A stretch of DNA of 64,000 bases, taken from NCBI RefSeq assembly GCF_033304595.1, contig NZ_CP116341.1, positions 3,017,001 to 3,081,000 on the forward strand. The letters run 5' to 3'. Every line of letters starts with the position of its first letter. Within the stretch, counting starts at the first letter, position 1. Source of the DNA: Sporosarcina jeotgali. GTDB lineage: Bacteria > Bacillota > Bacilli > Bacillales_A > Planococcaceae. A program made the translations under genes and the position numbers. Below the pieces are notes generated by a model. The model was not told the origin of the DNA. It did no database searches and saw nothing but the letters and a program-made list of their open reading frames with translations. Positions 29,103-55,505 of this stretch are shown here, piece by piece.

Positions 29103-29708
29103 TTAGTCGGAAAGAGTTTCAATACAGAGCGTCACGCCTTTTACAAGATCATCTAACGGCCACCCTGGTATTTTGCCATGCTGAACAGCCAGCTCAAACG
29201 AAGCAGGGATGTGTAAAAACCCTGATGGCATATCCGGTCGATGCTGTGAAGCCCAATGAAGCCCCGCATACATGACGTTATTACACAAATAGGTTCCCGC
29301 TGAATTGGAGATTGCTGCAGGCAGTCCCGCATCTGATAATCGGTTCACCATCTCCCGAATAGGAAGCGTAGAAAAATAAGCAGGCGGTCCTCCTTCTTCA
29401 ATCGTTTCATCAATCGGCTGGTGACCTTCATTATCGGGTTCGCCATCTTTCACATTGAGTGCAACTCTTTCCGGAGTCACTTTATAACGTCCTCCTGCTA
29501 GACCTAATGACACCACTGCATCCGGTTTTTCTTCATTAATATAAGTGAGCAGTTCTTCTCCGGATGCATTAAAATTCACCCATAGAACCTTTCCGCACAC
29601 CTTATAATCTCCGATGACTGTTCCATCTAATCTTTCAACAACTTGCATCGTCGGATTCACTGGAAACGCAAGAAACGGTTCAAATCCTGTAAGCAGTAAT
29701 TTCTTCAA
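29103..29708 (-). CDS. pcp: Pyroglutamyl peptidase I (pyrrolidone-carboxylate peptidase)
   Basis: Cysteine peptidase (C15) that removes N-terminal pyroglutamate from peptides, 201 residues. The catalytic triad is visible: Glu in PERVALN near residue 79, Cys in NSAGTYLCNN near 143 and His in GFLHIPASFE near 167. TTG start with AAAGGAG 9 bases upstream. It ends the dpp-type operon. Its product can be opened by the PxpABC enzyme encoded at 42677-45164. Confidence 0.95.
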   Translation of the reverse strand: MKKLLLTGFEPFLAFPVNPTMQVVERLDGTVIGDYKVCGKVLWVNFNASGEELLTYINEEKPDAVVSLGLAGGRYKVTPERVALNVKDGEPDNEGHQPIDETIEEGGPPAYFSTLPIREMVNRLSDAGLPAAISNSAGTYLCNNVMYAGLHWASQHRPDMPSGFLHIPASFELAVQHGKIPGWPLDDLVKGVTLCIETLSD

Positions 29709-40483: not shown

Positions 40484-41548
40484 TTAAGAAAATGGTGCTG
40501 GATAGACCGTTAAGCCCTTCCTCCCTGTCGTTTCAACCGCTTGGGACAGCGAATTTAAGATGGCTTCTTCCGTAACTTCAGCTGTTGCTTGGAATAGCTC
40601 ATTCAATGCAGGATCACTATCCCGAAGTAAGTGAACACATTCTAAAGAGGCCGATTTCTCATGCGGGAATTTGTGAGCAGTTGAAAATGCAATTACGATA
40701 TCTCCGCTTCCATTGCTGTAATGACTGCCAGTTCTAGCGAGTCCGATTCCCGCACGTTTTGCTACTCGTTTTAATTGACGATGATCCAAAGGCGCATCTG
40801 TTGCCAGGACGATCATGATAGACCCGTCGGCAGGCTTTGGCGCATTAGGCTGCGTGTCAGAAGCGCCTTTTATATATCGGGAGCTTTCGAATTCTTCCCG
40901 CTTGCCAAAGTTGCTTAGTACCAAGCAGCCTATCGTAAACGATTCGTTAGATTGTTTTGTGTGAATCACGCGTGAAGATGTCCCGATTCCGCCTTTATAA
41001 CCAAAGCAAACCATGCCTTTTCCAGCACCCACTGCCCCTTCTTCTGACGGGTGTGCGGATGCTTTTTTGATTGCCTGCCCGGCATGATCGGCTGTAACAG
41101 ACAGTTCTCTAATGGAGTTAAGCCGACTGTCATTGCACTCTCCAGTAACAATGTTAACAGTCCCTGTTGTGTCACCGATTTCTGGCGTCTGATCGAGCAG
41201 CCACCTAAGGGCTCCTTCAGTTACAGCTGGAACACCGAATGTATTTGTCAACATGATTGGTGACTCCAGAACTCCAAGTTCATCTAACTGAATGAGTCCT
41301 GTCGTCTTACCGAATCCGTTAATCACATAACTTGCTGCTGCTACTTTTTCTCGAAAAGGATTCCCTGAATGGGGCAAAATCGCAGTGACCCCTGTTGCAG
41401 CATACTCTCCATTCTCCAACGGTTCATCGAGAGTTACGTGGCCAACCCGTACATTGGCTACGTCTGTAATACAGTTGTTTTCACCCGTGGAAAGTGTGCC
41501 GATCTGAATACCGCGTGCTCTGACTTTCATTGGTTGTTGCTTCGACAT
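40484..41548 (-). CDS. P1-family (S58, DmpA-like) aminopeptidase
   Basis: A 354-residue Ntn-type peptidase that matures by self-cleavage before a Ser or Thr nucleophile. The likely site is in PADGSIMIVLATDAPL near residue 245. Other family blocks: GKTTGLIQLDELG and VGAGKGMVCFGYKGGIGTSSR. DmpA releases N-terminal D- or L-Ala from peptides; BapA relatives cut beta-peptides. GGGAG lies upstream. It stands alone within a peptide-use neighbourhood. Confidence 0.88.
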   Translation of the reverse strand: MSKQQPMKVRARGIQIGTLSTGENNCITDVANVRVGHVTLDEPLENGEYAATGVTAILPHSGNPFREKVAAASYVINGFGKTTGLIQLDELGVLESPIMLTNTFGVPAVTEGALRWLLDQTPEIGDTTGTVNIVTGECNDSRLNSIRELSVTADHAGQAIKKASAHPSEEGAVGAGKGMVCFGYKGGIGTSSRVIHTKQSNESFTIGCLVLSNFGKREEFESSRYIKGASDTQPNAPKPADGSIMIVLATDAPLDHRQLKRVAKRAGIGLARTGSHYSNGSGDIVIAFSTAHKFPHEKSASLECVHLLRDSDPALNELFQATAEVTEEAILNSLSQAVETTGRKGLTVYPAPFS

Positions 41549-41620
41549 TTTTCATGGCTCCCGTCTATGTATAGTCTTTCACAAAAGTTTCCACACTACG
41601 CAGTAAAAGGAGTGATCATT

Positions 41621-41899
41621 ATGCTGACGGAGTTTCCAACGATTCACACCAATATATGGGATGCATTTTGGGCGGTCCCTGTGACATTTGTTGTCGTTCT
41701 AATTGCTAAATGGGTTTTTCGAGTACGGCCAACGTGGCTTTCTACAGTTGCCACAGTGGTTGCTCTCATTTTATCCATTTTCATCAGTCATCCTCATAGT
41801 CTTTCCGCGGGTATCTTTATGGGGTTTTTCTATAGCGGTGCAGCTATGGGCGTCCTGTATTCAATGAAGCAATCCTATTTAGCATTTCGGTCAAAATGA
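41621..41899 (+). CDS. Small membrane protein of unknown function
   Basis: A 92-residue protein with three hydrophobic segments (about residues 14-31, 39-56, 62-80) and short polar ends. The ATG at 41621 follows AAAGGAGTG by 6 bases; the frame is open further upstream inside the peptidase gene, but no start with a ribosome site exists there. It is convergent with the FhuF-like gene, with eight bases between stops. I do not recognise it. Confidence 0.7.
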   Translation: MLTEFPTIHTNIWDAFWAVPVTFVVVLIAKWVFRVRPTWLSTVATVVALILSIFISHPHSLSAGIFMGFFYSGAAMGVLYSMKQSYLAFRSK

Positions 41900-41907
41900 G
41901 GAACGTT

Positions 41908-42618
41908 CTACACTTTCAGCGGACAAAATCCACATTGCATGAGTCCTGGAACGTCTTTTGAAAGGCAACAAGTTTTTCTCACAGTTGTGTTTAGTAAATC
42001 TGCGGGTTCACTTCCATTCAAATAAGAAGAAAATCGCGAGTGCGAAGAGATTCCCGTCCAAAACGAATCGTCCTTAAGGTGATTGAAAACAATTCTAGCC
42101 TCGTCTGAACAGGTTGGATCATTCAGCATGACGTGAAACTGCCAAAGCCAGAAGCCAAAAACGTTTTCCCACAGCACATTCGGAGAAATCGAAGCTGCCG
42201 ACCGGAGCGCCTCAATCACCATCTGGATTTGGACAAGGAGATTCCGAACGACGTCCGCAGCGTCTTTAATCGGGACATCTATCCAACCTTTGCTGTCTGG
42301 ATAAGTACTGACGGTCATATTGCCATATTCATGAACAGCTCCGAATGTTAACTCGTTGTCCCCGCCTCGCCACAGCTCCTCATATTGGATGAACTGAAAA
42401 AGCTGCATAGCTGTAAACATTCCATAACGACGCATGAAAAAAGAGGCAGCCACTGTCGTATTCGGACTTTTGCTTACGGTTTGAAGAACGGTTAATAGCC
42501 TTTCTTTATCACTTGCAGATGTTAAAATATGCAACGTGAATATGGGATGTCCGGGTCGTGTCGTATACACACCATTACTATGAAGTTGACTGATTTGGTT
42601 TCCTGTAAGTGTTGTCAT
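41908..42618 (-). CDS. FhuF-like siderophore-iron reductase
   Basis: A 236-residue protein whose C-terminus carries the FhuF [2Fe-2S] motif C-C-x10-C-x2-C (TCCLSKDVPGLMQCGFC). FhuF proteins reduce ferric siderophores in the cytoplasm. No siderophore uptake genes are adjacent. There is no ribosome site before the ATG; a TATACT box lies only 8 bases upstream, so the message may be leaderless. Confidence 0.8.
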   Translation of the reverse strand: MTTLTGNQISQLHSNGVYTTRPGHPIFTLHILTSASDKERLLTVLQTVSKSPNTTVAASFFMRRYGMFTAMQLFQFIQYEELWRGGDNELTFGAVHEYGNMTVSTYPDSKGWIDVPIKDAADVVRNLLVQIQMVIEALRSAASISPNVLWENVFGFWLWQFHVMLNDPTCSDEARIVFNHLKDDSFWTGISSHSRFSSYLNGSEPADLLNTTVRKTCCLSKDVPGLMQCGFCPLKV

Positions 42619-42676
42619 GAGATTAGTATATCAAAGATTCCGTCTTCATTCATGGTCCGCTTTTACTGAAAAGAAA

Positions 42677-43459
42677 TTAGTACATCCGATGAATAAAATC
42701 CCCTGCTTTCGTGACCGAAATCCCTTTTAGTTTTAGATCGTTACTCATTCTTTTAACGAATGCCAATGATTGTTCATGATCTCCATGTATGCAGATTGTC
42801 TCCGCTAAAATCGGCGTCTCTTGCTGTATACCGGTACGGACAGTTCCATCATTCACCATATTCATTACTTGCGTAATTACTAAATTATAGTCTTGAATGA
42901 CCGCGCCTCGTTGATTTCTCGGTGTTAGCGATAAATCGGATTCGTAAGTGCGGTCTGCGAATACTTCACTGGCAGTTAAGAGCCCCTGCGATTCACCTGC
43001 ATGAATCAGTGCACTTCCAGACAATCCATATAAAATCGCTTCAGGCGACACTGCAGCAACTGCACGTGCGATCGCTTCGGCGGCTGCTTCGTTGTTAGCT
43101 GCCATATTGTACAGGGCCCCATGAGGCTTCACATGGTGGAGCGGTACGCCTGCTGCCTTTAAAAACCCTTGGAGTGCACCTATTTGATAAACCATCAAAT
43201 CATATATCTCACGTTGCGTCAGATTCATTTCCCGTCTTCCAAACCCATTTAAATCCGGCAACCCGGGGTGAGCACCAATCGCAACATTATGCTGGGAGGC
43301 AAGATCAATCGTTGCATGCATTGTATTTGGATCACCTGCATGAAAACCGCAGGCGATATTCGCTGATGTAATGTACTTCATGACTTCCTCATCATTTCCG
43401 ATCGTGTAGGCGCCGAAACTTTCTCCTAAGTCACAGTTGATGTCTATATGTACAGTCAT
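42677..43459 (-). CDS. pxpA: 5-oxoprolinase subunit A (LamB/YcsF)
   Basis: A 260-residue TIM-barrel-like protein opening with DINCDLGESFG and containing GAHPGLPDLNGFGRREM and HVKPHGALYN, all diagnostic of PxpA. With PxpB and PxpC it hydrolyses 5-oxoproline (pyroglutamate) to glutamate at the cost of ATP. It overlaps pxpC by ATGA and is last in the operon. Confidence 0.95.
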   Translation of the reverse strand: MTVHIDINCDLGESFGAYTIGNDEEVMKYITSANIACGFHAGDPNTMHATIDLASQHNVAIGAHPGLPDLNGFGRREMNLTQREIYDLMVYQIGALQGFLKAAGVPLHHVKPHGALYNMAANNEAAAEAIARAVAAVSPEAILYGLSGSALIHAGESQGLLTASEVFADRTYESDLSLTPRNQRGAVIQDYNLVITQVMNMVNDGTVRTGIQQETPILAETICIHGDHEQSLAFVKRMSNDLKLKGISVTKAGDFIHRMY

Positions 43460-44466
43460 TGAATCCCTCCATTGATAAACTTAAGTTTTATCCCTATACG
43501 CAATTCATTTATAGTTTCTTCAACTTGCTGCAAGAGCTTCTGTGCAGTATGTATAGAGACTTCCCTAAACTGAATAGAATCCCCTGGCTTCGCTTGAGCT
43601 AATAATGGCAGGTCTGCTGTTATCACTTGAGCAATTTTAGGATAGCCGCCAGTCGTTTGATGATCCGCCATCAGTATAATGGGTTGTCCATTCGATGGGA
43701 CTTGAACAGAACCGAATGTGACGGCTTCAGATAAAAGCTCTTGAGGTTCAGATAGCTTAAGAAGCGGACCCTGTAATCTATAGCCCATGCGATCGGATTT
43801 CGAGTCTACCTTAAAGATAGAGGCTGCAAAGTCCTTTTGGCTTTGTTTGGTGAAAAGATTTATTTGAATACCTGGCAGCACCCGAATTGTGAAGGGCTCT
43901 TCTGCTAACGGCCGCAGTTTTTTGGCCACAGACCAAGTCACAGTTAAAAAAGGAAGCCGACCCTGCATCATATGCTCCATTCTCATAGGAGACGTTTCCC
44001 AGGGTCTTTTTACGGGCAACAGATCGTCTTTTTCTAGGCTTCTTCCCTGGAATCCCCCAAATCTTGCATTTATGTATGTGGAATGACTGCCCAGCGCTTC
44101 AGGCAAGTCAAATCCTCCAGCAACAGCCATGACAAGACGACATCCACGTGTTGCAGGACCAATCGTTAATACCGAGTTTTTCTTTATTGCGACAGGTCTC
44201 CACAACGGAACTGGAACCCCGTCTATTTCCGGGGTGAATTCGCCCCCGCATAAAGAGAGGAGCACATCTTTCTCGAACAGAAGCCTGGGCCCAAGGAGCG
44301 TCATTTCGAGAACGGCTTCACCTTCTGCATTCCCTACAAGGAGATTCGCAATTCGACTAGAAACGGAATCCATCGTTCCGCTATGGATGACACCAAATTG
44401 CTGGTAGCCGCTTCTGCCGCTGTCCTGAATCGTGTCTGACAAACCAGCCTTCACTACTCGAATCAT
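43456..44466 (-). CDS. pxpC: 5-oxoprolinase subunit C (biotin-dependent carboxyltransferase family, KipA-like)
   Basis: A 336-residue AHS2-domain protein: TIQDSGRSGYQQFGV at residue 12, GSHSTYINARFGGFQGR near 126 and MADHQTTGGYPKIAQV near 268. It is the KipA/PxpC half that works with PxpB. Overlaps both neighbours by four bases. Confidence 0.94.
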   Translation of the reverse strand: MIRVVKAGLSDTIQDSGRSGYQQFGVIHSGTMDSVSSRIANLLVGNAEGEAVLEMTLLGPRLLFEKDVLLSLCGGEFTPEIDGVPVPLWRPVAIKKNSVLTIGPATRGCRLVMAVAGGFDLPEALGSHSTYINARFGGFQGRSLEKDDLLPVKRPWETSPMRMEHMMQGRLPFLTVTWSVAKKLRPLAEEPFTIRVLPGIQINLFTKQSQKDFAASIFKVDSKSDRMGYRLQGPLLKLSEPQELLSEAVTFGSVQVPSNGQPIILMADHQTTGGYPKIAQVITADLPLLAQAKPGDSIQFREVSIHTAQKLLQQVEETINELRIGIKLKFINGGIQ

Positions 44467-45164
44467 ACATTCCCCTCCTTATAGACATCATATTGCTCTT
44501 TCGTAATGGCAAAAAACTCGAGCTGATCACCCGCACGCAACAAACTAGGCGGCGTTTCGTCCGGCAAAAACAACTCAATTGGCGTCTGTCCGATTAGCTG
44601 CCATCCCCCTGGTGTTTCAATCGGATAGATACCGGTTTGCCCCCCTGCAATCCCAACAGATCGGGGCGGTATCCGCAGCCTTGGATCTTCTCTGCGAGGT
44701 GCCGCAATTTTTTGCGACATCCCTGCTAAAAATGGAAATCCTGGGGCAAAGCCTAACATTTGTACAGTGTAGACAGCAGACGTATGAATAGTGATTACTT
44801 CATTTATTGTCAGTTCGTTCAGTTCAGCAACACTTTGCAAGTCAGGGCCGTGGTCGCCGCCATACAATACTGGAATTCTAACCGTACGCCGTTCGGTTAT
44901 CTTAATCGGTTCCAGACTGTCAAATAACTTTCGAATTTCCAAACAAACTTTTTCATAAGGAAACACATCTCTTGGAAAACAGTGAATATCATAAAGAATG
45001 GTAACGGACGTATAGGATGGAATGTATTCAATGAACCAAGCCGGCTGTTGTTCATCAAATACAGCAGTCACGGTTCTGATCTTTCTTTCCGTTTCTTCAA
45101 GATATGGTTCCCCGAATTCGAGGAGAACTGCCCGATCTCCTAAAGGAGAAATGATAAACTCCAT
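44463..45164 (-). CDS. pxpB: 5-oxoprolinase subunit B (AHS1, KipI-like)
   Basis: A 233-residue AHS1-domain protein with GFAPGFPFLAGM, PRLRIPPRSVGIAGGQTGIYP and TPGGWQLIG, the PxpB/KipI blocks. First gene of pxpB-pxpC-pxpA; start after AAAGGAGGAG. In Bacillus the orthologue was first described as a KinA inhibitor, but the oxoprolinase role is better supported by the complete operon. Confidence 0.94.
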   Translation of the reverse strand: MEFIISPLGDRAVLLEFGEPYLEETERKIRTVTAVFDEQQPAWFIEYIPSYTSVTILYDIHCFPRDVFPYEKVCLEIRKLFDSLEPIKITERRTVRIPVLYGGDHGPDLQSVAELNELTINEVITIHTSAVYTVQMLGFAPGFPFLAGMSQKIAAPRREDPRLRIPPRSVGIAGGQTGIYPIETPGGWQLIGQTPIELFLPDETPPSLLRAGDQLEFFAITKEQYDVYKEGNV

Positions 45165-45331: not shown

Positions 45332-46588
45332 TTATTCAGTTACTGCTTTCGTGTCTGTTAATTTTGGTTTGTTATCTTCCTTAATCAACGCTGCGGCAAT
45401 TGTACCGATGATAAGTAGGAAACCTGCAAAGTAGAAGCCCATATCCAGATTACCAGTTACATCAGCCAAGTAACCTGTGATGTATGGTGCAAGGATGGAA
45501 CCACACATTCCGATGAAGTTGTACACACCGAATGATGTACCATATGCATTTTTAGGAGCGTTGTCTGCGACAACAGCAACCAAGACAGGGTTTGTACTGA
45601 TTTTACCAAAGATCCCGTAACCGATTAGTGCTGCATAGAGAACATACATGTTGTCGAATGCAACGATGGAAACGAGAGAAATCAATGAAAGTGGAAGCAT
45701 AACAAGCAGTACTGGACGGCGCTTACCAAGACGGTCAGCAATCCAGCTGAAAAGAATCGAACCTGGTACAGCTGCCCATGGCACTAGTGAAGATACAGTT
45801 GCAACCGCGCTGCCTTCAATCCCGCGTGCGTGCTGCAAGTAGTAAGGCATCCATGTTACGACTACAAAGAATCCGTAAATTGCACAGAAGATTACGATGT
45901 AAGACATAAGCAAGTTGCGGTTTTTGAACAACACACTGATCTTGAATGGCTCTTCATTCTCAATTTCAGCTTTAGCTTTCTTGCCATATGGATTTTCTTT
46001 AACAAGCCACCACATTAGCAAACCAATGAGTACGACCGGAATTGCTACAATGTAGAATGGTGCTCTCCAAGACATTCCAGCTTCAATTGTATAACTGGAT
46101 AAGAAGTAACCAGCGGATAGACCGAACGCCATACCACTGTTGATAATTGCTGAACCGACTGTGATGTGTTTCTTAGGAATCGCTTCTGAAGATAAACCAT
46201 ACTGAGGTCCATAATAGAATCCTTGGAATACACCAACCATTAACCACATCAGTACGAATAAGAAGAATGTCGGCATAGACCCTGCAATTGCTGCAAAGAT
46301 ACCGAACATAATAATCCCTGGTACAAGCACTTTCTTTTTACCGATTTTATCACCGAGAATACCGGATGGAATGTTCAATCCCGCATAACCGATGAAGAAG
46401 ATACTGCTGATCATACCGAGTTGACCAGCGGATAAGCTGAATTCATTTTGAATATCATCCATGACAGGGTTTAAGATTGCACGCGTTCCATAAATTGCAA
46501 CCCAACCTAAGAAGAATACGATAACGGCTTTGATCCAATAAGGAATGAGTTCTTTTTTCTGGCCATTATCTTGTATTTGTTTCGCCAT
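45332..46588 (-). CDS. MFS transporter of the ureide locus
   Basis: A 418-residue anion:cation symporter-type MFS protein with 12 membrane segments. Loop 2-3 reads SGILGDKIGKKKVL and loop 8-9 IADRLGKRRPVL. Its promoter carries the same 48-bp block as fdrA, so it is likely the uptake carrier for the pathway substrate (allantoin, allantoate or another ureide). That substrate is an inference from regulation and location. GGAGG precedes the ATG. Confidence 0.85.
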   Translation of the reverse strand: MAKQIQDNGQKKELIPYWIKAVIVFFLGWVAIYGTRAILNPVMDDIQNEFSLSAGQLGMISSIFFIGYAGLNIPSGILGDKIGKKKVLVPGIIMFGIFAAIAGSMPTFFLFVLMWLMVGVFQGFYYGPQYGLSSEAIPKKHITVGSAIINSGMAFGLSAGYFLSSYTIEAGMSWRAPFYIVAIPVVLIGLLMWWLVKENPYGKKAKAEIENEEPFKISVLFKNRNLLMSYIVIFCAIYGFFVVVTWMPYYLQHARGIEGSAVATVSSLVPWAAVPGSILFSWIADRLGKRRPVLLVMLPLSLISLVSIVAFDNMYVLYAALIGYGIFGKISTNPVLVAVVADNAPKNAYGTSFGVYNFIGMCGSILAPYITGYLADVTGNLDMGFYFAGFLLIIGTIAAALIKEDNKPKLTDTKAVTE

Positions 46589-46655
46589 CGTTAGTTCCTC
46601 CTCAATTTTTTTATAATAGGTACTTAAGTGAAATGATCATTTACCTTACACTTGT

Positions 46656-46718
46656 ATAATACTGCAGCTGGCATTGCAGACGAATAAAATCAAAACAGCT
46701 AACATTGCCAAAACATTA
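46656..46718 (-). promoter_or_regulatory. Promoter of the MFS gene with shared 48-bp regulatory block (site A)
   Basis: On the minus strand, TAATGTTTTGGCAATGTTAG, eight variable bases, then ATTTTATTCGTCTGCAATGC (46718-46671), followed 10 bases later by TATTAT (46661-46656). AATGTT recurs at an 11-bp step, the usual spacing of OmpR/PhoB-type sites. There is no -35 box, as expected for activator-dependent promoters. The same block is at 55314-55361. Confidence 0.75.
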
Positions 46719-46772
46719 AATATCTAAAAGAATGTTTTCTGCCCTTCCTGACGGCGGTTCTTCAGGTACATT

Positions 46773-47489
46773 CTATTCACTAAGAGCGGCAACACTTTTC
46801 AACATGTACCCTAGACCCGGGTACGTAACAATGTACTCTTCCGGCTCTTTCAATCGCTCTTTGATTTTCCGTCTGATTCTTGCAATACCAACGCGCAGAT
46901 ACTCGACATCGTCTCGATATTGGGGACCCCATACTTCTGAAAGCAGCGATTCATGCTGCACGACTTTGTCTAGATTCAATGCAAGAATCTCCAATAATGA
47001 AAACTCGGTTTGCGTCAATTTCAATTCTTCATCGTCAATCCAAATCCGTTTACCCCCAACATCGACTTGCAGGGCTCCCGTCTGGATAACAGACGATGCA
47101 CCCGCAGACGCATCTGTAAGGCTTGGCTGACTTCTGCGCAAAACCGCGTTGACGCGTGCGAATAACTCGTCTAACGAAAACGGCTTCGTCAGGTAATCAT
47201 CAGCCCCTAAATTCAACCCATTCACTTTATCTTTTGGATTACTTCTAGCGGTTAACATAATAATAGGCGTATGAGAAAACTTGCGCAGTTCCTCCAAAAC
47301 ATAAAACCCATCTTTTCCTGGCATCATGATATCGAGTAATATTAAGTCCGGTGAAATGAGATCATACTTCTCCAGCAGTTCTTCCCCTGAGTCGGCAGTC
47401 ACCACTTCATATCCAACAGATCGTAAATTCGCAGAGATAAAACGCAAAATCTTTGCCTCATCATCTACGACACATATTTTTTGTTTCAT
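46773..47489 (-). CDS. OmpR/PhoB-family response regulator
   Basis: A 238-residue regulator: receiver domain with phospho-acceptor Asp in LILLDIMMPG near residue 53 and Lys in LTKPF near 107, then a winged-helix DNA-binding domain (LTQTEFSLLEILAL, VGIARIRRKI). It is placed directly after the sensor kinase. The shared repeats upstream of the MFS gene and fdrA have 11-bp spacing suited to such a dimer. Confidence 0.92.
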   Translation of the reverse strand: MKQKICVVDDEAKILRFISANLRSVGYEVVTADSGEELLEKYDLISPDLILLDIMMPGKDGFYVLEELRKFSHTPIIMLTARSNPKDKVNGLNLGADDYLTKPFSLDELFARVNAVLRRSQPSLTDASAGASSVIQTGALQVDVGGKRIWIDDEELKLTQTEFSLLEILALNLDKVVQHESLLSEVWGPQYRDDVEYLRVGIARIRRKIKERLKEPEEYIVTYPGLGYMLKSVAALSE

Positions 47490-47491
47490 CT

Positions 47492-48796
47492 TCAGGACCC
47501 CTTTCGTATCGGAAAGTAAAGTGTAAATGTACTGCCTTCTCCAGGTTTGCTATCGACTTCGATTCTGCCTTCATGCGCTTCCATAATCCCTTGGCAAATC
47601 GATAATCCTAAGCCCGTTCCGCCTGATCGCCGGGTTGCAGTGACATCGACTTGGTAAAAACGGTTAAAGATTTTCTGTAAATGCTCTTTCGAAATTCCAA
47701 TACCATTGTCCGTGACTGCAATCGTCAAGAAGTCGTCTTTTTTCTCCAACGTGATATCAATCTGCTTATGTGGGTGGTCGTTATAACGAAGTGCATTTGT
47801 AAAAAGATTCACCAGCACTTGTTGTACACGTGTTTTGTCCGCATAGAAGAATAAGTAATCCTCCGCTTTGTTGTGGAACGACAAAGTCGCCTCTTCTTTC
47901 AGGCTAATCGGGACAAGTTCGATGGACTTCTCGATAACGTGATCTGCCCGCACCATATTACGCTCAATGTACATGGATCCCGATTCGATTTTCGAGATAT
48001 CCATCCAGTCATCGACTAAGTGCTGGATTCGCTCAATGTCCTCATGAACGCCTTCCAGCAATTCCTCCTGAAAGTCCGGTTCCCACTCCACGTCATCCCG
48101 CAGTAAAGTTTCAACACTTCCTCTAATGTTGGTAATCGGTGTTTTAAATTCATGGGAAGTTAACGATATCAAGTTGTTTTTCAACGTATCGATTTCTTCT
48201 TCTTTTGTGATATCACGGATTAGCAGTCCCTCACCGATTTGTTTCTCGTCTGATATAACCGAGAATTTATGAAGCATATAAAAATCGGCATTTCCTGATT
48301 TTGTTTTGTATTCAAGTTTCAAATCACTGGCTTCTCCTTCAAAAAATGAAGTAAGTTCCTCCGCTGTGCTTTCAAACAGAACATTAATCCGGTTAAGAAC
48401 TTCAGACAGGCGCCCAAGGGGGACGTTTGTGCCGTCTCCGTCAATTACATTCAAGAAGAATTCATTTACATACTCGACTTCGTGATCGTTATTCAAAAGC
48501 ATGACACCTTCAGACATGCTCTCGAGAACCGCATCCAGTTCAGCATGCTTATTACGATACCGTTCAAATAATAATTTGTTTTGCAGCATAATCGCGAGAG
48601 AACGAGAGAACGTTTGAAGAAATGCCTGTTCTTTCGCTTTGATGGTTTGACCGTCTTCTAAGTCCACAATCAGGTATCCGTTCGGCAGGCCATCCAGTAC
48701 AATCGGTTCCATATGGTGATTCGTTCCTTGAACATTCGTCTTTAAATACTGTTGTAGACTGCTTTCCGGGTAAATTGCATTTCCTGTCACAGCCAA
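47492..48796 (-). CDS. Sensor histidine kinase, C-terminal part (frameshifted gene)
   Basis: The second half of a split kinase. From its upstream frame (SPFNVHIWFREL, before any start codon) it continues a GAF domain, then a PAS domain (about residues 88-195), HisKA with the phospho-acceptor in SLTSHEFKTPITN near 212, and HATPase with N-box NLFTNALRYN, VTDNGIGIS and GGTGLGLS. The TTG at 48796 has no ribosome site, so independent translation is doubtful. Joined to the frame ending at 48819 it gives one kinase of about 870 residues. Confidence 0.85.
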   Translation of the reverse strand: MAVTGNAIYPESSLQQYLKTNVQGTNHHMEPIVLDGLPNGYLIVDLEDGQTIKAKEQAFLQTFSRSLAIMLQNKLLFERYRNKHAELDAVLESMSEGVMLLNNDHEVEYVNEFFLNVIDGDGTNVPLGRLSEVLNRINVLFESTAEELTSFFEGEASDLKLEYKTKSGNADFYMLHKFSVISDEKQIGEGLLIRDITKEEEIDTLKNNLISLTSHEFKTPITNIRGSVETLLRDDVEWEPDFQEELLEGVHEDIERIQHLVDDWMDISKIESGSMYIERNMVRADHVIEKSIELVPISLKEEATLSFHNKAEDYLFFYADKTRVQQVLVNLFTNALRYNDHPHKQIDITLEKKDDFLTIAVTDNGIGISKEHLQKIFNRFYQVDVTATRRSGGTGLGLSICQGIMEAHEGRIEVDSKPGEGSTFTLYFPIRKGS

Positions 48797-48818
48797 TTCA
48801 CGGAACCAGATGTGTACG

Positions 48819-50108
48819 TTAAACGGACTGTTTAATATTTTGCAGACACAGCTGTATGAAATGCGGTAAGTCCATCTTGGACGAAACTGGTGTTATCAGC
48901 TGGTTGACCGCTTGCAATTCTGAATTTCGCTGCTCCAAGTTTGCCGTCCGCTCTTGTACACGCGCTTCTAGTTGTGTATTCAATTCCATGAGCTCCACTC
49001 GATTTTCTTCAATTTCAGACATCATGTCATTAAAATGAGTAAGCAGATCTGTCATTTCTTGAGGTCCTTGAATATGGTCAGACAATTTTACGGGATGGTT
49101 CGTCTTATAACTCGCCGTATAGCTTTTTATTGTGTCCAGCAAATTACGAATTGTCCGTTCAAGGCGATTTGTTAAAAAGAAACTCGCCAGTATGACAAAC
49201 AGGGCGGTGATTGGGATGAACCATAAAACTGTATTCGCTGCACTTCTTAGGGGCTTGTTGATCAAAGTGGATGGATTTGCTATCCACACAGTCCAGCCAA
49301 GCTCTTGAATTTTAGCGTACGTTATAAATTCTTTTCCGCTGTTATCCTCTTTGACGGTCAAGCTATTCATGGGCCGGTTCTCTTGCTTGGTAATCGTTTG
49401 TACAATTTGGGAGTTGGTTAAGTTGACCATTTCCGTTCGAGTATCCACATCTGGATGAACGATTACATTATTGTCCTGATCAAGAAGGACGGCATAACTG
49501 GCTTCACCGGAAATTCTGGTGGACACGTACTTTTCCAACGCATTTAAATCGATTGCACCTAAAATATAGCCTTGCATCTTGCCTTCACTGCTGAAGATTG
49601 GTGAAACAATTGCTACTAGGAGCGTATCCGTTCCTCCTCGTCCACGGAATACAGGTGAGATTACTTGTTCGTTCGTTTCCAGCAGTTCTTTGTAATACGA
49701 GCGATCGCTGAAATCTAAATGTTCCCGTGTCGCGCCATCCGTATAAGAAGCTGGAAAGAAGACGAGTGACTTTCCGTCTTTATCGCCCACATACAAGTTG
49801 ACGAAACCAGGATAATTGAGTTTAATATCCCGAAGTTTCTCTTCAATTGCCTCTGTTTGATTATTTTCCAATAACGGTGCAATACTTGCAGACATCGTTT
49901 CGATGATTCTTCCATGCTGTTCCATATAGCCTTCAATATTGTCTTCCAAAAACTCGGTTACTTTCGTCTGACTGTCCTGATTGCCTTCAATTAACGAAGA
50001 GAGCTGGAAGAATTGAAAAAAACCGAGGAGGATAATTGACGAGAGCCCAATGGTAAGAAATGAGTAAATGAGTTCTTTTTTAAAGGAACGGGATCGTCTA
50101 TTTTTCAT
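48819..50108 (-). pseudogene. Sensor histidine kinase, N-terminal part (interrupted by frameshift)
   Basis: The membrane sensor half: TM1 near residues 14-32, an extracellular double-Cache domain (RDI...YVGDKDGK, DFSDRSYYKELLE, GAIDLNALEKY), TM2 near 300-320, HAMP, and a coiled coil with ARVQERTANLEQRNSELQ. It stops just inside the GAF domain with NIKQSV. Removing one T from the TTTT at 48838-48841 restores the frame into the next segment. The ATG at 50108 follows AGGAGAG. Double-Cache domains often bind small acids or amines; here a ureide is a guess. Confidence 0.82.
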
Positions 50109-50173
50109 CCGTATTCTCTCCTTCCATTTTCGCCCTTTTATGTAACTCGAAATGCCTGTGTACATACCAAAAC

Positions 50174-50219: not shown

Positions 50220-51158
50220 TTACTTTTTAATTTGTGTTCCAGCTTTTCCTTCAACTGCAAGGTCAGCCTGTCCGAGTGAACAAATAATTGCACGTCCGCC
50301 CATTTCAGCAAACTTCATCGCAGCTTCAACTTTAGGACCCATGCTGCCCGCAGAGAATTGACCTTCATCTGCATAGCCTTTTGCTTCTTCAAGTGTAATT
50401 GTGCCAAGTGCTTTTTGATCAGGTTTTCCGTAGTTAACAAATACGTTATCCACGTCAGTCAAAATCATAAGAACATCCGCTTTTGCCTCTTCTGCTAGAC
50501 GGAACGCACTGCGGTCTTTATCAATAACCGCTTCAATGCCTGTTAAGCTGCCATCTTTTTCACGTACGACTGGAATTCCGCCGCCGCCTGAAGCGATAAC
50601 AATAACCTTGTTATCTGTCAGCAGTTTAATTGTATCTGAGCTTAAGATTGACTTCGGATTTGGTGAAGCAACAACGCGTCTCCAGCCACGGCCGGCATCT
50701 TCTTTAACATCCCAGCCTTTTTCTTCTGCCAATTGCTTTGCTTCTTCTTCTGAATAGAAGACACCGATTGGCTTAGAAGGATCTTCAAAAGCAGGATCAT
50801 GACGATCCACTTCTGTTTGCGTCAGCATGCTGACTACTTGGTTGTTAAGACCAAGCTTATTCAATTCGTTCTTCAATGTCTGTTCCATCATGTACCCGAT
50901 GAATCCTTGTGATTCTGCGCTACATACGTCTAGTGGAAGTGCGGGAACAACATCTTTAGCTTCTTCGTTCTGACGAAGAATGTTGCCTACTTGCGGGCCG
51001 TTGCCATGCGTCACGATGACTTCATGACCGTTCTTGACAATTTTCGCAATGATTTCAGTACTAATCCGTACGTTTTCACGCTGATTCTCGTAAGTCGCTT
51101 CCTGCTTTGGCTGCAAGATTGCGTTTCCCCCAAGTGCAATTACTACTTTTTCTGTCAT
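50220..51158 (-). CDS. arcC: Carbamate kinase
   Basis: A 312-residue amino-acid-kinase-family enzyme that makes ATP from carbamoyl phosphate and ADP. Motifs: VIALGGNAI, VTHGNGPQVGN, VIASGGGGIPV, LTDVDNV and AGSMGPKVEA. It overlaps the DUF2877 gene by ATGA and is not next to arginine deiminase genes, so in this locus it most likely consumes the carbamoyl phosphate released by the AllFGH-type complex. Confidence 0.95.
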   Translation of the reverse strand: MTEKVVIALGGNAILQPKQEATYENQRENVRISTEIIAKIVKNGHEVIVTHGNGPQVGNILRQNEEAKDVVPALPLDVCSAESQGFIGYMMEQTLKNELNKLGLNNQVVSMLTQTEVDRHDPAFEDPSKPIGVFYSEEEAKQLAEEKGWDVKEDAGRGWRRVVASPNPKSILSSDTIKLLTDNKVIVIASGGGGIPVVREKDGSLTGIEAVIDKDRSAFRLAEEAKADVLMILTDVDNVFVNYGKPDQKALGTITLEEAKGYADEGQFSAGSMGPKVEAAMKFAEMGGRAIICSLGQADLAVEGKAGTQIKK

Positions 51159-52075
51159 TCTGTTTTCCTCCTTAGCGCTAGTAAGCCGAGTAACATGCCA
51201 AAAACCGTATCTGTTCCAGAACTATGCCCCATTTCGAGCAATTCCAAAAGCAGTGGTTTTAGCATATAAATATCTGTCTTCCGTGTCAATGCCGAAGTTG
51301 CTTCTACTACTGTTGAACTGAAATGTCCATTCAATGCGTAAAGCAAGTACTCGCGGCCGATATCAGTCGTCAGAGCTTCTTGCACAACGAGCTGTCTTAA
51401 GGTATCCGTAAATGGATCCGATAAAATTCCCGTCGCTTCATGGATAGCAAGTAAACCGACCAAATGATCATCACCAGACGGGGTAAGTCCTTGTCCCCGT
51501 CCAATGATATATCTTAGATGCCGTTCAATTTCGTTCGTGTTTGAGGAATTCATTGATTCTAATAAAGCAGAAAGATGCTGCTCTGTCAGGCCATTAGCAA
51601 GACTTCCTTCCAACTGTCGGGTCAACCATAATTCAATATCGATGTCTAAGCCAGTCACTCGCGGTTCTTCGAGTAAGATGGATGCAAACATCGCTAAATT
51701 ATCCGCCAGCCGCTCACTCGTTACGAGTTCTCGGGAAACCTTACAGTCAAAAGGGTCACCTCCAACTAGACTCACAACTGTTTCCGTCTCTCCAAATGAC
51801 AGACTTCGATCATTTGGTTCCCAAGAGACGGCAGAATTCTCATTGATTCCATTTAACAGCCGGTCCAAATCCTCTTGTGACAGATGAATACCAAATGGCA
51901 GCCGGCCATTTTTTACCGTTCCGATGAAAAATAGACGATCACCGCTTTTGATATTTAACCCATTCTGAAACGTGCTGTGGACGGTGCACACTGGATGCTT
52001 TGCCAGATGGAAAGGTATTTGCTGCTGGTATTCTGTCGCATGCAGGATGGTTCGTCTTGCTTGCGGCCGAGTCAT
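51155..52075 (-). CDS. allH: DUF2877 protein, AllH-type subunit of oxamate carbamoyltransferase
   Basis: A 306-residue protein with the DUF2877 hallmark GRGQGLTPSGDDHLVG near residue 190. It corresponds to YlbF, the third member of the fdrA-ylbE-ylbF set in enterobacterial allantoin clusters, for which oxamate carbamoyltransferase activity has been assigned. Its start overlaps the stop of the DUF1116 gene by one base (TAATG). Confidence 0.85.
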   Translation of the reverse strand: MTRPQARRTILHATEYQQQIPFHLAKHPVCTVHSTFQNGLNIKSGDRLFFIGTVKNGRLPFGIHLSQEDLDRLLNGINENSAVSWEPNDRSLSFGETETVVSLVGGDPFDCKVSRELVTSERLADNLAMFASILLEEPRVTGLDIDIELWLTRQLEGSLANGLTEQHLSALLESMNSSNTNEIERHLRYIIGRGQGLTPSGDDHLVGLLAIHEATGILSDPFTDTLRQLVVQEALTTDIGREYLLYALNGHFSSTVVEATSALTRKTDIYMLKPLLLELLEMGHSSGTDTVFGMLLGLLALRRKTE

Positions 52076-53337
52076 TAGATCAAGCCTAACTTCACAGCGT
52101 ATGCTTCAATTGCTTTTTCAAAACATTCTTTTGGTGCACGAACTGTACCTGCACCTACTTGTCCCATACCAGCCTTTTTGTTCGCAATTCCTGTGTTGAT
52201 AATTGGTTCGATACCAGTTTCAACAACTTTACGAGCATCGATTCCCAGACAAGCCCCTTGGAAATCCCAAGTAGGAATTGTAAAGTTACTGTTTTGAGAA
52301 ACACAGATTTCTGTCATTTCGTTACTAGTTGCAAGTGCATCATCGAAACCGCCAGCACCCACGAAACGTGTTACACCAGGAGCAGCAATCATCGCCATAC
52401 CGCCAACACCGAATGTTTCAGTAATTGCGCTGTCGCCGATGTCCGGATTCGCATCTTCCTGAGAGAATCCAGTGAAGAATAAGCCTTGTGGCGTATTTAC
52501 TGGAGCTGTAAACCACTCATCTCCCATACCGCTAATGCGGATACCGAAGTCTTTACCGTTACGGCACATTGCAGTAACGACTGTTCCGTCTTGAATTGTA
52601 CGGGCAGCATCCATAACAGCTTTACCAGTTGCCATTGCGATGTTCAAGAAGAACTGATCTGTATCGGCTAGGAACTGAATTACATCTTTACGATCGTTCG
52701 CATCCATATCCAGCTGGACGATGTACGGGCTGATCTCTTTTAGGAAAATTAATGATGCTGCAATGTTGCGCTGGTGGAATTCGTCACCCATTGTGATCGC
52801 TTTTGCAATGATAACGTTCAGGTTCAAACCATCTTCAGTAAGAGCGAGCGCTTTTGCGATTGTTGGTCCAAGAATATCTTGCATCCATTTTAAGCGATCA
52901 ATTACTTCTTGTGAATTTGCTCCGAAACGAAGAACTTTACCGATTCCTTCGTTCATAATGCAATATGCCTCGTTCCCTTCTGAACGATTTTCTACAACGA
53001 ATACTGGCATATTTGCTGATGTGATTCCGCCCATAGGTCCAACCGCATTTACATGATGGCAAGGAATAAATTTTACTTCTCCGCCAGCTAATTGCTTTTC
53101 AGCATCTTCTTCAGATGCTGCCCATCCTTCATAGATTGCAGCACCAATACATGACCCCTGCATTGGACCTGTCATGTCACTCCACTGAATTGGAGGGCCC
53201 GCATGAAGGATTACTTTCCCCTCGTTAAGCTCTTTGATTTTTTCTTTTGCTGGTACAACGTCGACTAGAAATGGAGCTGATCCGCTAATTTTATCGATAA
53301 CTGCTTTGTTTGCTTCATCCATTGACTTGTAGTTCAT
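52075..53337 (-). CDS. allG: DUF1116 protein, AllG-type subunit of oxamate carbamoyltransferase
   Basis: A 420-residue YlbE/YahG-like protein of the DUF1116 family: LHAGPPIQWSDMTGPMQGS near 42, GGMAMIAAPGVTRFVGAGG near 315 and a C-terminal IINTGIANKKAGMGQVGAG. It is the second member of the FdrA-AllG-AllH set. The ATG at 53337 (MNYKSMDEANK) has GAGGTG 6 bases upstream; earlier in-frame starts up to 53382 lack ribosome sites. Confidence 0.87.
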   Translation of the reverse strand: MNYKSMDEANKAVIDKISGSAPFLVDVVPAKEKIKELNEGKVILHAGPPIQWSDMTGPMQGSCIGAAIYEGWAASEEDAEKQLAGGEVKFIPCHHVNAVGPMGGITSANMPVFVVENRSEGNEAYCIMNEGIGKVLRFGANSQEVIDRLKWMQDILGPTIAKALALTEDGLNLNVIIAKAITMGDEFHQRNIAASLIFLKEISPYIVQLDMDANDRKDVIQFLADTDQFFLNIAMATGKAVMDAARTIQDGTVVTAMCRNGKDFGIRISGMGDEWFTAPVNTPQGLFFTGFSQEDANPDIGDSAITETFGVGGMAMIAAPGVTRFVGAGGFDDALATSNEMTEICVSQNSNFTIPTWDFQGACLGIDARKVVETGIEPIINTGIANKKAGMGQVGAGTVRAPKECFEKAIEAYAVKLGLI

Positions 53338-53386
53338 AACGCACACCTCATTCGTCATATTTACAGATGTCTCCATCTGCATAGTA

Positions 53387-53436: not shown

Positions 53437-55185
53437 TTACTTCAGTAAGCTTAAGATTTTTGCCATGCGTGCATTTCCGCCAGCAACTGGACGCCAGTCA
53501 TATTGAACAAACTGTGTAGCAGTGTCTGAAAGTGCATCTGTAAAGCCTTTCAATCCGACGTTAATGACACGCGGACGTTCTGAAACGAGTGACGCGATGT
53601 CTTCAGAGACAGTGAGATCGAATTTCTTATCTGATTTTGTTCCTTCAACATGTTTCTTCTGGTTATCTTCCACTTTGAGCCCAACAATGCTGAGAGCAGT
53701 ACGGACTGCTTCGTTGTTAGTTTCTTTTACAATCACACCAGCTTCTCTCAGCTGTTTCACGTGACCGTCATAGCTTTGCGGATCGTTTTTAGTACCGCAC
53801 ACAGTTGCGACGACATGCAATGTACGTCCGCTTTCTTTTGCCTGTGCAACCGCTTTGTTGATAGATGGCAGCAATGCGCTAGCCATGTCGTCATGTGAGC
53901 CATATCCAAGAACGAAGTCGAGCAAGATAACAGCCGTTGTTTCATCAGCTCCTGCTTGTTCGATGAACTTCGAACGAGTTTCCGGATCGATCATTGGGTG
54001 TGGTTTCCCTTGCGTATACTTATCATCTCCAAGGTCCACGATTTCTTGACCTTCGTGCTTCAAGACATAGCCTTCTTCGTTTTTAATATGTGTACCTAGA
54101 CCTAATGCGTCAGAAATCAGAACAGCTGCTTCAGAAGCGAGTGTACCGCCTGAATACAATCCTTTAAGCGTCTTCTGTCCTTCTTTCAAGTCAGCATTCT
54201 CAACAGAGAAGTCTCCTGCATTATAGTCAGGTTTCACTTCGTTGCCGCGAGCGAGGTCCACTGCAATATGTGCAGTTTCTGCAAGGGTATATGCTTGGTA
54301 CACATTGCCTTCGTACTGTTCAAGCTTTTCACCCAGGAATACAGCTACTACTGGCTTCGTCAAACTTTGAAGAAGTTCCATTACTTCGTTACGCACGTGT
54401 TCTGCAGGCGGCTTCGAAATAATTGTGATAATTTCTGTCTGACTATGGTTTTCAAGAGCGCGGATTCCATCCATCATCGTAATCGCACCAATCGGATCTT
54501 TCAGGTCACGTCCGCCTGTACCGATTGCGTGGCTTACACCTTCTCCTAAGCGATCGATAATTGTAGATACTTCCTGAATTCCTGTTCCTGATGCACCGAC
54601 AAGTCCGATTCGGCCTTTGTTTACAACGTTTGCAAATGCCAAAGGTACACCGTCAAGAATTCCAGTACCGCAGTCTGGACCCATAACAAGCAACCCTTTG
54701 TCATGTGCTTTTTGCTTTAAGCGCAACTCGTCTTCTACTGAAACGTTATCACTGAACATGAACACGTGAAGACCGCGGTCCAAAGCTTTGTCCGCTTCAT
54801 CTGCTGCATATTCACCTGGTACTGAAATCATGGCAACGTTTGCATTTGGCAGTGCATCCATTGCTTTGTCCCACGTACGAACAGTTTCAAATCCTTGCTT
54901 TTTGTTGCTGATGGATTGGTCATTCAAGTACTGCTCCACTTTTTCAAGAACCGTATCCATCATTTCTGCACTGTCAGTGTCGACAACAATCGCCATGTCG
55001 TTCGATTCTGCAGCTTCAAGTTCTGCTGTATGCAATCCTGCATCTTTAAAGATATCTTTATTTGCTGGTGTAGCCATCATGATCTGTACTTTGTTGAGAC
55101 CTTCCATTGTTGCAATTGAGTTCGTCAGCAACATTAGGTTAATAGAGTCTTGGTACGAGTTCTTCTTGATAATCGTATGAAGCAC
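53437..55185 (-). CDS. fdrA: FdrA-family protein, AllF-type subunit of oxamate carbamoyltransferase
   Basis: A 582-residue protein related to succinyl-CoA ligase alpha and beta chains: CoA-ligase-like Rossmann segments (VMGPDCGTGILDGVPLAFAN near 170, GLVGASGTGIQE near 195) and GLYSGGTLASEAA near 350. It is the first subunit gene of the FdrA-AllG-AllH complex that phosphorolyses oxalurate to oxamate and carbamoyl phosphate. GTG at 55185 follows AGGGGTG; the GTG at 55194 is part of that ribosome site. Confidence 0.9.
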   Translation of the reverse strand: MLHTIIKKNSYQDSINLMLLTNSIATMEGLNKVQIMMATPANKDIFKDAGLHTAELEAAESNDMAIVVDTDSAEMMDTVLEKVEQYLNDQSISNKKQGFETVRTWDKAMDALPNANVAMISVPGEYAADEADKALDRGLHVFMFSDNVSVEDELRLKQKAHDKGLLVMGPDCGTGILDGVPLAFANVVNKGRIGLVGASGTGIQEVSTIIDRLGEGVSHAIGTGGRDLKDPIGAITMMDGIRALENHSQTEIITIISKPPAEHVRNEVMELLQSLTKPVVAVFLGEKLEQYEGNVYQAYTLAETAHIAVDLARGNEVKPDYNAGDFSVENADLKEGQKTLKGLYSGGTLASEAAVLISDALGLGTHIKNEEGYVLKHEGQEIVDLGDDKYTQGKPHPMIDPETRSKFIEQAGADETTAVILLDFVLGYGSHDDMASALLPSINKAVAQAKESGRTLHVVATVCGTKNDPQSYDGHVKQLREAGVIVKETNNEAVRTALSIVGLKVEDNQKKHVEGTKSDKKFDLTVSEDIASLVSERPRVINVGLKGFTDALSDTATQFVQYDWRPVAGGNARMAKILSLLK

Positions 55186-55298
55186 AAAAATCACCCCTGT
55201 AAGTTTTTTAAAAAATCAGCACGCTAGCTCTTGCATGTGTTTCCCTAATCGGGATACTCAAAACTTGTGCGAAAGCTGTTTTTATTTAATCCAAATTA

Positions 55299-55361
55299 AT
55301 TGTAACGCAATTTGCATTACAGACGAATAAAATACCGGAGCCTAACATTACAAAAACATAA
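55299..55361 (-). promoter_or_regulatory. fdrA promoter with shared 48-bp regulatory block (site B)
   Basis: On the minus strand, TTATGTTTTTGTAATGTTAG, eight variable bases, ATTTTATTCGTCTGTAATGC (55361-55314), 10 bases, TACAAT (55304-55299). Layout and spacing are the same as in site A at 46656-46718. The 311-bp gap also serves the divergent hydrolase gene; I see no clear plus-strand promoter in it. Confidence 0.75.
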
Positions 55362-55505
55362 AAGTATGAATCGAAAGCTGTATTCTTGACGTTTCGTGTC
55401 GTAAGATAGTGGCAGAAACGGTTTTCTTCAGAGTTTTTTTCGCCCATTAGACTCTGCTGTTTGTTTTGATGTACCGACAGATACTCGAGGAAAGAGGATG
55501 CAATT

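Follow-up and report, generated by a model that had tools for sequence, protein, structure and literature searches.

A ureide gene cluster with an embedded two-component pair

The window, a 64,000-nucleotide stretch of the Sporosarcina jeotgali genome, carries on its minus strand four adjacent genes that form an allFGHK cluster. These are fdrA/allF, encoding an oxamic transcarbamylase subunit (53437..55194, NCBIfam FdrA, 726 bits), allG (52075..53382, Pfam AllG, E 7e-99), allH (51155..52075, Pfam AllH, E 2e-24), and the carbamate kinase gene arcC/allK (50220..51158, TIGR00746, 426 bits). The allFGH genes encode oxamic transcarbamylase in E. coli, and the conversion of oxalurate to oxamate and carbamoyl phosphate has been shown for the E. 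coli proteins only (PMC11326118). Beyond these genes are a ureidoglycolate dehydrogenase gene (allD) and an allantoate-amidohydrolase-like gene.

On the same strand, arcC is followed by a histidine kinase gene that is split into two fragments, a sensor half with a dCache domain (48819..50165, dCache_1, E 7e-27) and a kinase half with a weak PAS match, HisKA and HATPase_c (47492..48796). Next come a response regulator gene (46773..47489) and an MFS transporter gene (45332..46588, MFS_1, E 9e-64), both on the minus strand. The regulator combines a receiver domain (Response_reg, PF00072, E 2.5e-30) with a Trans_reg_C winged helix (PF00486, E 1.8e-20), the architecture of the OmpR/PhoB family. Its phospho-acceptor D53 is invariant in 18 homologues and the recognition helix VEYLRVGIARIRRK is nearly invariant. 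The presumed substrate of the transporter is a compound of the ureide/oxamate pathway. Past the MFS gene, the region 40484-45164 encodes PxpA/PxpB/PxpC-type (5-oxoprolinase) proteins and an S58 peptidase and contains an uncharacterised ORF (41908-42618) that lacks a Pfam match; a pyroglutamyl peptidase gene is found at 29103-29708.

Two matching promoter blocks and their geometry

Two 48-bp blocks on the minus strand lie on either side of the regulator gene, block A (46671-46718) before the MFS gene and block B (55314-55361) before fdrA. The earlier note had described them as alignable without gaps, identical at about three quarters of positions, and composed of two arms around eight free bases. 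All of this is borne out: 36/48 positions are identical (75%), with 19/20 in the arm near the -10 box, 17/20 in the distal arm and 0/8 in the middle. The runner-up ungapped 48-mer in the window, with both strands searched, reaches 26/48. A search of the 3.2-Mb Sporosarcina genome with the shared two-arm pattern, as that note had suggested, matched exactly two sites at up to three mismatches (A and B), and the reversed control pattern gave zero matches in the same search. By chance, the two-arm pattern in its degenerate form would be expected about 1e-6 times per genome. Single-arm matches were rejected as further targets in this genome, because at three mismatches they are at or near chance (29 matches vs 36 for the control with the distal arm, 75 vs 52 with the near arm).

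The distal arm (AATGTTTTGGCAATGTT) contains AATG repeats 11 bp apart, and the near arm (TTTATTCGTCTGCAATG) is a degenerate form of this repeat. In block A, the near arm TTTTATTCGTCTGCAATG (46672..46689, minus strand) overlaps the -35 region, has no mismatches and has a core that is invariant in 12 Sporosarcina; the distal arm TTTAATGTTTTGGCAATGT (46702..46720, minus strand) shows the 11-bp AATG repeats. The equivalent arms of block B, also on the minus strand, are TTTTATTCGTCTGTAATG (55315..55332) and TTTTATGTTTTTGTAATGT (55345..55363). The earlier note had proposed that AATGTT steps of 11 bp fit an OmpR-type dimer. Both arms can be summarized as TTWAT-N5-TGYAATG, a pair of half-sites with an 11-bp step. 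Within a block, the four half-sites lie at 0, 11, 31 and 42 bp, near whole 10.5-bp turns and on one face of the DNA. This phasing would suit two tandem OmpR/PhoB-type dimers, with the near one replacing the -35 element.

The -10 hexamers, TATTAT for the MFS promoter (46656-46661, minus strand) and TACAAT for the fdrA promoter (55299-55304, minus strand), are each 10 bp from the near arm. There is no TTGACA-like -35 element; the hexamer at a 17-bp spacer is TTCGTC. This layout, a box about 10 bp from the -10 without a -35, is that of PhoB-type promoters in which the bound protein replaces the -35. The same layout, claimed at first for the two blocks here, recurs at all 53 sites in related genomes that were chosen by their arms alone: TAnnnT is found exactly 10 bp past the near arm in 53/53, T1, A2 and T6 are always present, the hexamer has at least 4/6 sigma-A-type matches in every case, and a -35 element is absent throughout. 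At 50-52 of the 53 sites, a TG follows close to where transcription is expected to start. A good -10 without a -35 calls for an activator. Since the near arm overlaps the -35 region, protein bound there might also obstruct polymerase, and the block could then serve chiefly for repression by the same regulator; alternatively, it could work only with an alternative sigma factor. Given the sigma-A-type hexamers at every site, we consider these variants very improbable.

Could the likeness of A and B stem from recent copying of a stretch of promoter, or from a transcribed RNA element, instead of selection for protein binding? Two alike copies in one genome would be expected in that case. However, the middle eight bases are wholly different, the outer flanks match at only about 40% (7/17 and 14/32), and the arms are kept over eight genera while their surroundings change. 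An RNA element is further opposed by the absence of any Rfam match and by the position of the block upstream of the -10, which places it outside the transcript made from that promoter. We therefore give this explanation almost no weight, and treat each block as a probable protein-binding site. Downstream of the -10, the MFS leader also contains a palindrome, AAATGATCATTT (46631..46642), that is kept in 12 Sporosarcina and absent in other genera; it is a possible second operator.

Distribution of the block and of the regulator

A scan for FdrA, confirmed by tblastn, gave 40 loci. The kinase and regulator follow arcC in 23 of the 40, which with the window makes 24 loci from Sporosarcina, Bacillus, Cytobacillus, Paenibacillus, Lentibacillus, Neobacillus, Ornithinibacillus and Virgibacillus. 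The order fdrA-allG-allH-arcC-kinase-regulator is kept in these 24 loci (the allH match is missing in three), most with an MFS gene next. The block precedes fdrA in 24/24 loci of this gene order and precedes the nearby MFS gene in all 23 that have one; in two of these, the spacer is one base longer. Within 12 Sporosarcina, the intergenic regions have diverged outside the block, the -10 region and a small number of further short elements. We built a scoring matrix from the 12 Sporosarcina A sites and applied it to the fdrA and MFS upstream regions elsewhere. Non-Sporosarcina sites of this locus type score from 4.3 to 44 bits, apart from the two MFS sites with the extra spacer base (-8.5 bits in L045 and 8.5 bits in L050), and loci without a regulator orthologue score -12.7 or less. 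In one further locus (L057), the kinase and regulator are upstream of fdrA, the regulator is 64% identical and the score is -1.3.

Overall, 26 genomes from at least eight genera keep the block before fdrA and/or the MFS gene. The strict pattern occurs in exactly two copies in 10 of the 11 matching Sporosarcina genomes and in none of 250 other genomes of the family. The earlier note had taken a block before many unrelated genes as evidence against the regulon, but in a scan of 399 Bacilli it was detected in none of the 398 other genomes. The extra copies in relatives precede either a pathway gene or a plausible one. The MFS orthologue keeps its block when it is encoded on another contig (Virgibacillus LDC-1 and Oceanobacillus luteolus). 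In Sporosarcina sp. D27, an AllG paralogue (L161:1499-2995, 71% identical to AllG) has its own block, with a degenerate second arm and the -10 exactly in place. The full block is upstream of a gene with three RidA domains in two species (Bacillus and Cytobacillus, L102 and L112), which suggests that RidA takes part in the oxamate pathway, and an Nramp-like transporter gene is preceded by a block with three mismatches.

Single sites resembling the distal arm, in reverse orientation, are found 50-100 bp upstream of chemoreceptor genes in the S. jeotgali genome (C1:750861 and C1:2538764) and in relatives (L073, L074, L151 and L157), only in Sporosarcina genomes that bear the regulator. They lack both the second arm and a -10 at the right spacing and were not accepted as targets; we retain them as a lead only.

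In whole-genome scans, the block is present in all 26 genomes with a regulator orthologue (at least 64% identity) and in 0/5 fdrA-bearing genomes without one (Fisher test, 6e-6, a value that ignores relatedness and is descriptive only). Part of this co-occurrence is due to shared ancestry, since the operon travels as a unit. Linkage alone could indeed produce the pattern if the block were the operator of another factor, such as a PucR/AllS-like protein or a nitrogen regulator, with the two-component pair merely co-travelling. B. subtilis uses PucR. The E. coli allF operon is under AllS and ArcA (PMC12535856). Against this, typical loci encode no other regulator between fdrA and the MFS gene, and direct repeats with an 11-bp step are in keeping with OmpR-type proteins. 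The block also goes with the regulator in two genomes where the operon parts are scattered (G296 and G299), and it is absent in a genome with a 72% identical fdrA that is missing the regulator (G303). Control by another factor thus appears unlikely. In Bacillus chungangensis (L051), a second allFGHK copy beside allD genes has neither an adjacent regulator nor a block. Regulator paralogues of 52-54% identity occur in two genomes, and the one scanned (G298) has no block, so that either the specificity has diverged or the block was missed; no divergent block was seen beside the 54%-identical paralogue in L052.

Given that the block is found, across many soil bacilli, only in genomes with this kinase and regulator pair, the pair very probably acts through it to turn on the nitrogen-scavenging ureide/oxamate genes. 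The ureide two-component regulon proposed in the earlier note gains support from comparative genomics, in which block presence tracks the adjacent regulator. In this strain, the regulator and both putative operators are intact. The model needs a correction for the kinase, whose gene is split here at 48796-48822, where the sensor half meets the kinase half, by a 5-nt deletion relative to five aligned relatives. In 24 related loci, the kinase is a single ORF of about 860-925 codons. With its kinase frameshifted, the circuit could be non-functional or changed in this strain, though intact in relatives; the split indicates either a decaying circuit or an assembly error.

The predicted circuit, its signal and known systems

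We consider it highly likely, from sequence comparisons, that each block is an operator of the OmpR/PhoB-type regulator encoded between them, and that the regulator activates both the allFGHK-kinase-regulator operon and the MFS gene. Judging by gene order, transcription of the entire operon, two-component genes included, probably depends on block B. The dCache domain of the kinase would detect a small molecule outside the cell, most likely a carboxylate of the pathway such as oxamate, oxalurate or ureidoglycolate. The phosphorylated regulator would then occupy each arm as a head-to-tail dimer, with both dimers on one face of the DNA, and the near dimer would stand in for the -35 and recruit RNA polymerase to the -10 box 10 bp away. 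This would switch on allFGHK together with the kinase and regulator genes, a positive feedback if the gene order is a guide, as well as the MFS transporter.

The AlphaFold model of the extracellular part of the kinase shows a dCache domain (mean pLDDT 83). It superposes on KinD with bound pyruvate (4jgp) over 201 residues (VIA Z 20.5, rmsd 2.2 A), a Z similar to that of many other dCache proteins. In a comparison of the sequence profile with solved structures, KinD is the top match (E 7e-9), and KinD R131, mutated in 4jgq/4jgr, aligns with an Arg that is invariant in 23 kinases. The domain thus has both the fold and the R131 equivalent of KinD. In PctA-type dCache_1 sensors, Arg126 contacts the carboxylate of the amino acid and Asp173 the amine (PMC10104139). 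The Arg126 equivalent is invariant in our kinases and the Asp173 position is Ala (HMMER alignment to PctC), so the pair of residues that marks amino-acid sensors of this type is incomplete. An amino-acid ligand is thus not favoured, and a carboxylate that lacks an alpha-amino group, for instance the pyruvate isostere oxamate, is a plausible candidate. The resemblance to pyruvate-binding KinD leads us to guess that oxamate or a relative is the signal; KinD is also reported to bind AI-2 (PMC7584622).

A broader reading, which we put forward tentatively and hold to be possible rather than probable, is that this is a widespread and undescribed two-component system of Bacilli, in which a KinD-like pocket senses external oxamate or a ureide-derived carboxylate and switches on the oxamic transcarbamylase pathway, the transporter and possibly chemoreceptors. 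Our literature search found no description of such a system. Oxamic transcarbamylase remained an orphan enzyme up to 2024 and, to our knowledge, E. coli is the only organism in which its control has been described. For Gram-positive bacteria, the present analysis proposes a dedicated signalling system for this enzyme, together with a putative operator and a candidate transporter, so that the controlling signal can be tested directly.

E. coli PhoB binds pho boxes of 11-bp direct-repeat half-sites located about 10 bp before the -10 of promoters with a weak or absent -35. The blocks described here share the 11-bp repeats, the distance to the -10, the missing -35 and a winged-helix response regulator. 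They differ in their half-sites (YAATG/TTWAT), in the presence of two dimer sites with roughly the length of one half-site between them, and in the regulon. The kinase resembles B. subtilis KinD in its dCache fold and in a D-R-S-aromatic-aromatic stretch, whereas sequence identity is about 15% and KinD is a member of the sporulation phosphorelay. The enzymes are those of E. coli allFGHK, oxamic transcarbamylase and carbamate kinase (PMC12535856, PMC11326118), but where E. coli relies on a LysR-type regulator and ArcA, the operon described here contains its own pair of a dCache kinase and an OmpR-type regulator.
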